Shown here in pieces: positions 16,517-57,325 of a stretch of DNA of 64,000 nt. The notes under the pieces are model-generated. The model saw nothing but the letters and a program-made list of their open reading frames with translations. It was not told where the DNA came from and made no database searches. The stretch is from Bacteroidales bacterium (GTDB lineage: Bacteria; Bacteroidota; Bacteroidia; Bacteroidales; Bacteroidaceae). The stretch lies in NCBI GenBank assembly GCA_012517855.1, contig JAAYUD010000008.1, positions 1-64,000 of the forward strand, in the 5' to 3' direction. The position numbers were made by a program, and so were the translations under genes. Position 1 is the stretch's first letter; every line of letters starts with the position of its first letter.

Positions 16517-16590
16517 GGGCTTTTAGCTCAGTTGGTTAGAGCAACAGACTCATAATCTGGAGGTCCTAGGTTCAAGCCCTAGATGGCCCA
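16517..16590 (+). tRNA. tRNA with anticodon CAT (tRNA-Met or lysidine tRNA-Ile2)
   Basis: The 74-nt sequence folds as a cloverleaf. The acceptor pairs GGGC with GCCC but has one T:T mismatch near the base. The D-arm is GCTC/GAGC, the anticodon loop is CTCATAA (CAT at 16551-16553), and the T-arm is CTAGG/CCTAG with loop TTCAAGC. CCA is not encoded. Both elongator Met and Ile2 tRNAs have this loop, so amino-acid identity is left open. It lacks initiator features I could rely on. A terminator follows at 16596. Confidence 0.93.
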
Positions 16591-48670: not shown

Positions 48671-49579
48671 ATGGATATACAATTTCCTTCGTTTTTGAAA
48701 GAAAACGATAAGGTCGCCATCATTTCTCCGGCCAGCAAAATAGACAAGACATTATTAAAAGGAGCCATCCACCGTCTCTCTTCATGGCACTTATGCCCTT
48801 ATCTCGAAAAGAATGCTTCAAGCGCAGCAGGATACTATTCAGGCAGCATTAAAGAACGCCTTTCTGATTTTCAGCACGCACTTGACGATAAAGAAGTAAG
48901 AGCTATTCTTTGCAGCCGAGGTGGATACGGAGCCATACACCTTGTTGAGAAACTCGACTTTACCAAATTCAAAGAATCGCCCAAATGGTTGATAGGTTTC
49001 AGTGACATCACAGCTTTGCACAACCTACTACAATACAACGGTTATGCTTCCCTTCACGCCCCAATGGCAAAACAGTTGACCATCGAACCTGAAGACGATT
49101 TATGTTCAAATTATCTAAAAGACATCCTTTTCGGAAAGTTACCCGATTATCACGTTGAGCATCATCGGCTAAACCATTATGGAAAAGCACAAGGTACATT
49201 AAGAGGCGGAAACATGTCGGTATTCTACGGACTACGTGGCACTCCTTATGATATTCCAGCCGAAAAGACAATACTTTTTATAGAAGACGTTGGCGAAAGG
49301 CCCCATGCAATCGAAAGAATGATGTATAACTTGAAATTGAGTGGCATATTGGAAAGATTGTCGGGATTGATTATTGGACAATTTACCGAATATGAAGAAG
49401 ATAAAGAATTGGGGAAAGATCTTTATGATGCAATCGCAGATTTAATAAAAGAGTACGATTATCCTATTTGCTTCAATTTCCCCGTCGGCCACGTTACCGA
49501 CAACCGTCCACTAATAGAAGGAGCACAAGTAGAATTAAATATAGACAAAAAAGGAGTAAATTTGCGTTTCAATGTATAA
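48671..49579 (+). CDS. LD-carboxypeptidase (family S66), no signal
   Basis: The 302-residue protein has KVAIISPASKID, ILCSRGGYGAIHLVEKLDF, the nucleophile Ser in LIGFSDITALHN, Glu in FIEDVGERPHAIERMMYN and His in FPVGHVTDNRPLIEG. Family members trim the terminal D-alanine from cell-wall tetrapeptides during recycling in the cytoplasm, or inactivate microcin C-like compounds (MccF). A TATTTTTG box at 48633-48640 is a likely promoter. It overlaps the next, paralogous gene by 8 nt. Confidence 0.92.
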   Translation: MDIQFPSFLKENDKVAIISPASKIDKTLLKGAIHRLSSWHLCPYLEKNASSAAGYYSGSIKERLSDFQHALDDKEVRAILCSRGGYGAIHLVEKLDFTKFKESPKWLIGFSDITALHNLLQYNGYASLHAPMAKQLTIEPEDDLCSNYLKDILFGKLPDYHVEHHRLNHYGKAQGTLRGGNMSVFYGLRGTPYDIPAEKTILFIEDVGERPHAIERMMYNLKLSGILERLSGLIIGQFTEYEEDKELGKDLYDAIADLIKEYDYPICFNFPVGHVTDNRPLIEGAQVELNIDKKGVNLRFNV

Positions 49580-55149: not shown

Positions 55150-56619
55150 ATGATGAAACGATTATATAGCTTTATTGCAGCGTTGAGCTTGATTGTGCTC
55201 AGTTCGTGCAACAATTTTCTCGATATGCAGCCCACCAACGCTTCCAATTCGGAGGATGCTATTGCCACCCCTTCGGATGCAAAAGTCATCATAAACGGTA
55301 TCATGCGTACCATGACATCATCGAACTATTACGGACGCAACTTTATTATGTATGGCGATACCAAAGGTGGCGATCTGACTATTGCTTCGCAAGGCAGAGG
55401 GCTAGATGGCATGTATACTTTCAACCATTCGGCAACATCGGGTTCTTACAGTGGATTCTGGACTACGGGGTACAACTGTATCTTGCAAATCAACAATCTG
55501 CTAGAGAATATTGCAAAGATAGCCACTAATGGTTCGACCGACTACGATAAGTATAAAGGCGAAGCCTTGACACTACGTGCGCTTGTATACTTCGACTTGG
55601 TGAGGCTTTACGGGTTGCCCTATAATTACAACAAAACAAGTTATGGCGTACCACTGGTGACTAAAACCCTCGATGCAAATGCTCAACCTACCCGCGCTTC
55701 GGTTGAAGATGTCTATAAACAGATATTGGCTGACCTTACAGCAGGTGCAACATTGCTTGCCGAAAACAAAAAGCAAGAAAACGGATACATCGGTTACTAT
55801 GGCAACATTGCCGAGCAAGCAAGAGTAAAGCTCTATATGGAAGATTATGACGGGGCGCTCGCGGCATCACAAGAAATTATAAACAGCGACGCTTTTACTC
55901 TATACACTCCCGAAAATTGGTTGGCTTCCTGGGGAAAACAATTCGGATCGGAAAGCATTTTCGAATTGGCGATGTATTCCAATGAGGCAGATTTGGGTAC
56001 CAGTTCATTAGGCTACTATCTGATGCGCGAAGGACTAAAAAGCGGCGCAGCCGGTTGGTTTATGGCAAGTGATTATTTTCTGAACCGCTTGGGTGAAGAC
56101 CCTACAGATGTGCGTTGGGCAGTAATGGGGCAAGACGAGAGTGAAAGGACACATTTGGGGAGTTGTTATAAGTATATGGGAGGAACAGATTTGACCGGCG
56201 ATGGGAAAGATTCGCCTACGGCCGTCAATGTGAAAGTCATCAGACTCAGCGAAATATATCTTATAGCCGCCGAGGCTTCCTTGCATGCATCAACCCCCGA
56301 TGCTGCCGGAGCAGCCTTCTATCTAAACAAAATACGTTGTAGAGCGCCCCAATTAGCCCCGGCAACGGTATCGACAGTGAGCGATGATATGATACTCGAC
56401 GAACGCAGCAAAGAATTGTTTGGTGAAGGACAACGCTTTTTTGATCTGATTCGTAAAAACAAAAGCATCACTTACGACGACGAATTTGGAGGCATTGCAG
56501 TAACACAACGTACGAAAACAATAGATCGCACCTTCGGCAAAATCGTTTTGCCCATATCTCAAGACGAAATCAATGCCAATAAAGCGTTGGGTGCTGAACA
56601 AAACGAAGCATACAAATAA
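55150..56619 (+). CDS. SusD/RagB-type surface lipoprotein
   Basis: The 489-residue product has a lipoprotein signal (LIVLSSCNNFLDMQP) and the SusD fold of TPR helices (LRALVYFDLVRLYGLPYNY; EDVYKQILADL; VKVIRLSEIYLIAAEASLHA; ELFGEGQRFFDLIRKNK). It forms the lid of the SusC-like transporter. An AGGAGG site at 55139-55144 precedes ATG 55150. No glycosidase, sulfatase or regulator gene follows, so this is an isolated pair whose ligand cannot be read from context. Confidence 0.96.
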   Translation: MMKRLYSFIAALSLIVLSSCNNFLDMQPTNASNSEDAIATPSDAKVIINGIMRTMTSSNYYGRNFIMYGDTKGGDLTIASQGRGLDGMYTFNHSATSGSYSGFWTTGYNCILQINNLLENIAKIATNGSTDYDKYKGEALTLRALVYFDLVRLYGLPYNYNKTSYGVPLVTKTLDANAQPTRASVEDVYKQILADLTAGATLLAENKKQENGYIGYYGNIAEQARVKLYMEDYDGALAASQEIINSDAFTLYTPENWLASWGKQFGSESIFELAMYSNEADLGTSSLGYYLMREGLKSGAAGWFMASDYFLNRLGEDPTDVRWAVMGQDESERTHLGSCYKYMGGTDLTGDGKDSPTAVNVKVIRLSEIYLIAAEASLHASTPDAAGAAFYLNKIRCRAPQLAPATVSTVSDDMILDERSKELFGEGQRFFDLIRKNKSITYDDEFGGIAVTQRTKTIDRTFGKIVLPISQDEINANKALGAEQNEAYK

Positions 56620-56722: not shown

Positions 56723-56753
56723 TTGACAAATCAAATTAAAAGACTTATCTTTG
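56723..56753 (+). promoter_or_regulatory. Promoter of greA
   Basis: TTGACA at 56723-56728, then TATCTTTG at 56746-56753. The predicted start near 56760 is about 100 nt before the greA ATG. Confidence 0.65.
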
Positions 56754-56776
56754 CATTTACAATTTAACAATAAGGG

Positions 56777-56807
56777 TTCCGGCATGTGCGTGTCGGAATT
56801 CTTTTTT
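56777..56807 (+). terminator. Terminator-like hairpin in the greA leader
   Basis: ttccggca (56777-56784) and tgtcggaa (56791-56798) form an 8-bp stem with one G:T pair, followed by ttcttttttg. It lies between the promoter and the gene, about 17 nt after the likely start, so it could act as an attenuator. Confidence 0.6.
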
Positions 56808-56860
56808 GTTTTGGTTGTACACTAAATTTAATCATAAAAAAATTAAAGGAGGAAAAAAAC

Positions 56861-57325
56861 ATGGCATACATGTCAGAAGACGGGTACAAAAAATTAGTTG
56901 CTGAACTGAAACAATTGGAGGGAGTAGAGCGTCCGCACATCTCAGCACAAATTGCTGAAGCTCGCGACAAGGGCGATCTTTCGGAGAATGCAGAATACGA
57001 TGCTGCTAAGGAGGCTCAAGGTATGCTCGAAATGCGTATCAACAAACTTAAAAGCACTATTGCTGATGCGAAAATCATTGATGAATCGAAATTAAAGACC
57101 GATAGTGTACAAATATTGAATAAAGTAGAGATAAAGAATGTAGCCAACGGGATGAAGATGGCCTATACCATCGTTTCGGAAAGCGAAGCCGACCTGAAGG
57201 CAGGTAAAATATCGGTAGATACCCCTATTGCGCAAGGACTACTTGGAAAGAAAGTAGGAGATATAGCCGAAATAAAGATACCGAAAGGCACCATTCGTTT
57301 GGAAGTAATTGGTATTTCCATCTAA
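56861..57325 (+). CDS. greA: Transcription elongation factor GreA
   Basis: The 154-residue protein rescues backtracked RNA polymerase by stimulating transcript cleavage. It has the coiled-coil tip acidic pair in DKGDLSENAEYDAAKE and the C-terminal FKBP-like domain (ILNKVEIKNVANGMKMAYTI; PIAQGLLGKKVGD). ATG 56861 follows AAAGGAGG at 56845-56852; the longer frame to 56786 would begin within the leader hairpin and is rejected. Confidence 0.95.
   Translation: MAYMSEDGYKKLVAELKQLEGVERPHISAQIAEARDKGDLSENAEYDAAKEAQGMLEMRINKLKSTIADAKIIDESKLKTDSVQILNKVEIKNVANGMKMAYTIVSESEADLKAGKISVDTPIAQGLLGKKVGDIAEIKIPKGTIRLEVIGISI

Follow-up and report, generated by a model that had tools for sequence, protein, structure and literature searches.

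GreA rescues stalled RNA polymerase, and in Escherichia coli the leader of its gene is said to contain a terminator, GraL, reportedly described by Potrykus in 2010. Here, we describe a hairpin followed by a U-run in the greA leader of a Bacteroidales bacterium (GenBank assembly GCA_012517855.1), located in the first 64,000 nucleotides (nt) of contig JAAYUD010000008.1, a stretch that we refer to as the window. On the basis of its predicted fold and its recurrence in relatives, we consider it quite probable that this element is a promoter-proximal intrinsic terminator, or attenuator, of greA, situated within the first 60 nt of the transcript.

According to the accessible part of a study of GraL (PMC6829880), 19 nt precede the hairpin in E. 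coli, RNAs of 49 to 59 nt are made from promoter P1, and roughly two thirds of transcripts end at GraL. In the same text, overproduction of GreA led to more GraL and less reporter expression, an effect that required catalytic GreA and acted in cis; this autoregulation was seen only in vivo and not in vitro; a further, unknown factor was suspected. Attenuated greA leaders were also reported, in the accessible part of a survey by Naville and Gautheret (2010; PMC2965389), for Proteobacteria, bacilli, and Clostridia, and the string "Bacteroid" occurs zero times in the main text of that paper. In the open-access literature, we found no report of a greA leader terminator in Bacteroidota. What was measured here is the wide conservation, in Bacteroidota, of a kind of element that is already known from other phyla.

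The greA leader and its conservation

The leader is laid out as follows (window coordinates; invariance refers to nine closely related leaders):

56723..56728, + strand: -33 box TTGACA, read directly from the sequence; TTG is invariant
56746..56753, + strand: -7 box TATCTTTG, presumed Bacteroidota type, read directly; 7 of 8 columns are invariant
56757..56760, + strand: inferred transcription start, from the spacing of the boxes
56772..56785, + strand: 5' arm of the predicted terminator hairpin, from folding and covariation
56790..56803, + strand: 3' arm of the predicted terminator hairpin, from folding and covariation; GGAATTCTT is invariant
56802..56812, + strand: U-run TTTTTTGTTTT (T6-G-T4), the predicted 3' ends of a short RNA, from the sequence and the T-rich tails of relatives
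56847..56852, + strand: AGGAGG, a Shine-Dalgarno-like site 8 nt 5' of the ATG, read directly; enriched at non-Flavobacteriia greA genes
56861..57325, + strand: greA, 154 amino acids, above the cut-off of TIGR01462 and the single match in its genome

The order of promoter, hairpin, T run, and greA given in a preliminary description of this DNA was confirmed by direct reading; the hairpin, put at 8 bp in that description, proved to consist of 14 pairs, including G-U, with a 4-nt loop. The -7 box, which we take to be of the Bacteroidota type on the basis of the consensus TAnnTTTG, is separated from the hairpin by 18 nt, and another 57 nt lie between the hairpin and the greA ATG at 56861. The gene itself scored 176.9 bits against the NCBIfam model TIGR01462 (cut-off, 139), is the one greA match in its genome (3.64 Mb in 114 contigs), and has its closest relatives, among the matches listed, in Bacteroides and other Bacteroidales.

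At the sequence level, the window leader resembles GraL in that a terminator-like hairpin follows the own promoter of the same gene, in that leader length and predicted RNA size are about equal, and in that the U-run is broken by a G. It differs from GraL in its unrelated sequence and in the Bacteroidota type of its promoter. The E. coli greA locus, included as a positive control, yielded a hairpin of -18.6 kcal/mol followed by ATTTTTTTGCTT; together with the layout in the window, this bears out the earlier proposal that the greA leader contains a terminator-like hairpin, the dimensions of which resemble those of GraL.

The segment from 56758 to 56810 folds at -20.4 kcal/mol, compared to -7.6 kcal/mol (standard deviation, 1.9) for shuffled sequences (z = -6.6; 0 of 200 as good), and a longer fold, from 56758 to 56862, keeps the hairpin intact (-26.3 kcal/mol; z = -4.3). 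Since plain counts of sites in the surrounding 4 kb were at the level of chance, with 11 promoter-like sites versus 11.1 expected and 3 terminator-like sites versus 3.2 expected, the argument has to come from the strength of the fold and from conservation. The layout as tested (a TAnnTT[TC]G box, then a hairpin with a U-run, then a gene) was found at 4 of the 170 genes preceded by 80 nt or more in a survey of 367.8 kb of the same genome (the 64,000 bases of the window plus 20 stretches totaling 303,847 bases, about a tenth of the genome); greA was among these four genes, and none of the other three had six T's in a row.

Together with the window, the best 80 of at least 587 confirmed relatives make up a set of 81 greA loci, 75 of which have the promoter-hairpin/U-run-greA layout; among 167 other genes from these flanks, 4 have it (Fisher p, 7e-51). 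A terminator within 140 nt of greA and of -8 kcal/mol or better was present at 68 of the 80 close relatives and, by the same criterion, in 48 of 56 genomes of an order sample, representing 56 families, and in 80 of 90 leaders of a phylum sample; dinucleotide shuffles produced such a terminator in 11 of 240 cases for the close relatives and in 22 of 270 cases for the phylum set, the input of which included 14 of the 90 leaders in the wrong orientation. The order sample had greA in 57 of 60 genomes and contributed 56 leaders, one per family (L232 and L281 are cut by contig ends). The phylum sample comprised 147 other genomes, from which 90 leaders were taken (the 30 best-scoring loci and 60 chosen for family spread) and 57 were left out; for about 10 of the 90, in which no ATG was found, the start of the model match was used instead. 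In summary, the tight promoter-hairpin-greA unit is present in the closer relatives and in half of the order sample, and the presence of the hairpin reaches wider. The occurrence of similar hairpins before greA in most of the relatives examined makes it probable that this one is a genuine brake on GreA, built into its gene.

In the nine close leaders, conservation is concentrated in the TTG of the -33 box, in the -7 box, and in the stem, including its 3' arm, together with the U-run; the sequence drifts between these blocks, in the loop, and over most of the part 5' of AGGAGG. A wider alignment (A1) was made from 43 of the 81 loci, picked for clear, alignable hairpins, a choice that favors the covariation result. 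In it, 96.8% of cells were paired, and two-sided changes were present at 11 of 13 pairs (shuffle mean, 5.0; reached by 0 of 500 shuffles), a measure that counts sequences rather than events and for which the shuffles leave relatedness in. Pairing fell to 62% when the partners were slid by one column, and RNAalifold returned ten pairs, nine of which are shared with the aligned stem. At four pairs of the lower stem, the 5' base swaps between A and G (giving A-U or G-U) and the 3' U is retained, with few exceptions; such swaps keep both the pairing and a U-rich 3' strand, as an intrinsic terminator needs. One hairpin sequence family spans many Bacteroidia, and other families of the phylum sample have unrelated stems (starting with, e.g., GCAAGACTATG, CAACGC, or TGCCACTGC) yet retain the leader terminator, which argues that its placement is conserved deeper than its sequence.

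Our greA leader model, R1, whose training set includes the greA site of the window, ranked that site first in its own genome (expectation value [E], 2e-6; next match, 0.009). As a greA-specific finder, R1 was rejected, since it was trained on its own greA site and matches generic terminators elsewhere. Separately, R1 matched both strands of the same genome at positions 49548 to 49594 of contig C70 (L193/L194; E of about 0.01), which is likely to be a terminator that works in both directions. When the greA region of E. coli was scanned with R1 without filters, the GraL hairpin was not matched, in agreement with the earlier remark that the two sequences are unrelated. Convergence with GraL, which had been proposed on that basis, is one of two readings: an old element with sequence turnover fits the pattern of stems in the phylum as well as repeated origin does.

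Alternative explanations

Several observations weigh against a dedicated terminator of greA. In the window, a co-directional gene, presumably susD-like to judge by its sequence, ends at 56619, and there is no other terminator-like site between it and greA. The layout is missing in 6 of the 81 close loci (L013, L015, L019, L041, L046, and L055), although a hairpin is still listed at L015, L041, and L046. Among the 56 order leaders, a strict box precedes the hairpin in only 28, 23 have a hairpin without such a box, and 5 have no hairpin; a laxer TAnnTTnn was found within 60 nt in 16 of the 23 boxless leaders, which is weak evidence in such AT-rich DNA. Judged by eye, a co-directional frame seems to end just 5' of the boxless hairpin in L237, L242, L258, L261, and L262. 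Upstream terminators are also present at 37 of 219 other flank genes, a count that can include the terminators of preceding genes, and at 8 of 30 leaders of the trigger-factor gene, tig, the starts of which are uncertain (21 of 30 have no ATG near the match start). R1, too, matches other terminators, with 21 of its 85 matches in the order sample lying just upstream of greA. The hairpins of the Flavobacteriia-type loci (24 loci, our own grouping by taxon label and leader type) are weak, with a median of -10.1 kcal/mol and an alternative fold within 5 kcal/mol in 10 of 23. Finally, greA is not named in the main text, as far as accessible, of the transcriptome maps of Bacteroides thetaiotaomicron (PMC7366714) and Flavobacterium psychrophilum (PMC9723704), the supplementary tables of which may list the leader.

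The alternative that survives best, to which we nevertheless give a small chance, is that the hairpin is the terminator of the upstream gene, or a guard against read-through from it, and has no part in greA control. Such a role would suit both the susD-like gene of the window and the boxless loci mentioned above, and the upstream open reading frame is co-directional at 48 of the 72 layout loci where one could be identified; at the other 24, however, it is divergent, so that the hairpin there is not the terminator of the upstream gene. Moreover, the window and 74 other loci have a box 5' of the hairpin, and although this box was itself part of the test, the spacing of the two is tight (median of 6 nt for the 23 Flavobacteriia-type loci and of 19 nt for the 52 others). 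The window hairpin may double as a stop for read-through from the susD-like gene, and the boxless order leaders may have a promoter of another kind or a hairpin that acts for the gene upstream.

It is improbable that the hairpin belongs to a separate small RNA gene 5' of greA, with the greA promoter following it, even though the promoter-hairpin-U-run unit resembles such a gene and GraL acts in trans on nudE as well (accessible part of PMC6829880). Of 75 loci, 12 leave no more than 30 nt from the hairpin to the ATG and 3 contain another TAnnTT[TC]G box in this interval, so that greA transcripts usually must pass the hairpin; in addition, the loop and the 5' leader drift, and no conserved seed was seen. 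We regard it as very improbable, too, that the hairpin stabilizes or shields the 5' end of the greA mRNA instead of terminating transcription. While the Flavobacteriia-type hairpin does start a few nucleotides from the inferred transcription start (the median gap of 6 nt from the -7 box) and has a rather low stability for a terminator, the U-run right after the stem and the retained U's of the 3' arm suit termination rather than a 5' shield.

The RNA that precedes the loop offers little room for a sensor. Counted from the inferred start, its median length is 13 nt in Flavobacteriia-type loci and 31.5 nt in the others (median minimum free energy, 0 and -1.3 kcal/mol, respectively), and it folds at -5 kcal/mol or better at 6 of 75 loci (window, 0.0 kcal/mol). 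With the terminator pairs penalized, the most stable structure predicted for the window leader was at -10.0 kcal/mol, versus -26.3 kcal/mol. Antiterminator pairing of the 5' arm with upstream RNA was found neither in the window nor in any of the 23 Flavobacteriia-type loci and was absent in 68 of 75 loci overall, an alternative fold pairing the 5' arm upstream in 7 of the 52 other loci. A conserved leader peptide was not found either: an ATG lies 5' of the hairpin core in 21 of 75 loci, with peptides that are unlike one another, and there is none in the window. At gathering score, Rfam had no match at the leader in the window or in 20 loci (18 close relatives and 2 from the phylum sample), and a permissive scan of the window yielded only matches far below the gathering scores. 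With so little upstream RNA and with no antiterminator, peptide, or Rfam family, a simple terminator acting on newly started polymerase remains.

In the accessible part of PMC2965389 (Naville and Gautheret 2010), the greA/rnk leaders likewise have a premature terminator 5' of greA that is conserved by gene and not by sequence, and every greA/rnk cluster has a clear antiterminator; unlike them, the window and 68 of 75 loci lack antiterminator pairing. The weakest alternative, that the leader senses a ligand or a peptide and works through an antiterminator, as has been suggested for other greA leaders, is thus highly improbable, the six loci with a pre-loop fold and the seven with upstream pairing notwithstanding. 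Another known leader of similar description, in the same source, is the rimP-leader, which belongs to a different gene and is also a widespread, simple hairpin with a T-stretch.

Two coding candidates in the window were rejected: a leader peptide (ATG TGC GTG ... at the hairpin loop), because it is not conserved, and an extended GreA frame from GTG 56786, which is open in the window and would contain the hairpin, because a stop that lies between the hairpin and the ATG closes it in 58 of 75 loci. The match to the GreA model begins at 56867, two codons past the ATG, which also counts against the extended frame.

The Shine-Dalgarno-like site and other features

Bacteroidia ribosomes generally ignore Shine-Dalgarno sequences, rpsU and rpsR being exceptions described in the accessible part of PMC9976891. 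AGGAG or GGAGG was found at positions -20 to -4 of 22 of 56 non-Flavobacteriia greA genes, compared to 5 of the 192 other genes in those loci (p, 5e-12), and of 0 of 24 Flavobacteriia-type greA genes, versus 0 of 104 other genes. Such a site is present at 9 of 259 genes of the window's own genome, greA included, and in 8 of the 90 greA leaders of the phylum sample.

Elsewhere in the phylum, the tig leaders of L206, L213, and L215 to L218 contain a hairpin and T-run 28 to 45 nt before the start. Three other genomes carry a second greA-like copy, with a terminator-like hairpin upstream at L282 and L284 and none at L283. A tRNA gene at positions 16517 to 16590 is the one place in the window where an Rfam family reached its gathering score.

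Proposed mechanism and meaning for greA control

For the greA terminator of the window, we propose that RNA polymerase would start from TTGACA/TATCTTTG and make 12 to 15 nt, after which the hairpin would form. A share of transcripts would then end at approximately 56803 to 56812, as RNAs of about 45 to 55 nt, and the remainder would read through into greA; the predicted terminated RNAs have median lengths of 33 nt in Flavobacteriia-type loci and 57.5 nt in the others. We infer all three elements of this scheme, i.e., termination, its being partial, and its setting the level of GreA. Partial, constitutive attenuation would be the most likely mode of action, as far as the leader allows a prediction, and the likely control input would be the state of RNA polymerase, through effects of GreA, NusA, or NusG on the pause in the U-run. 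That more GreA would cause more termination, and hence negative feedback, is the least certain step, a suggestion that is plausible by analogy with GraL but about which we are somewhat doubtful.

More speculatively, and in our estimation rather unlikely, the greA terminator might act across Bacteroidota as a sensor without sensing RNA, with read-through reporting on the passage of polymerase (GreA included) through its first pause. The terminator of such a sensor would lie at the extreme 5' end of the RNA, beginning near +1 in Flavobacteriia-type loci; its stem sequence would be free to vary between clades, and selection would keep its placement. In this respect, the Flavobacteriia-type loci differ from E. 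coli: their hairpin begins close to the inferred +1 and thus lacks the stretch of 19 nt that, in the accessible part of PMC6829880, contributes to regulation by GraL.

The leader described here adds a conserved candidate regulatory element without an Rfam match at the leader (window and 20 loci scanned). As a widespread counterpart with a very short leader in another phylum, it would provide a stripped-down test of the unexplained autoregulation of GreA: should feedback persist with almost nothing before the hairpin, the leader sequence would not be the sensor.
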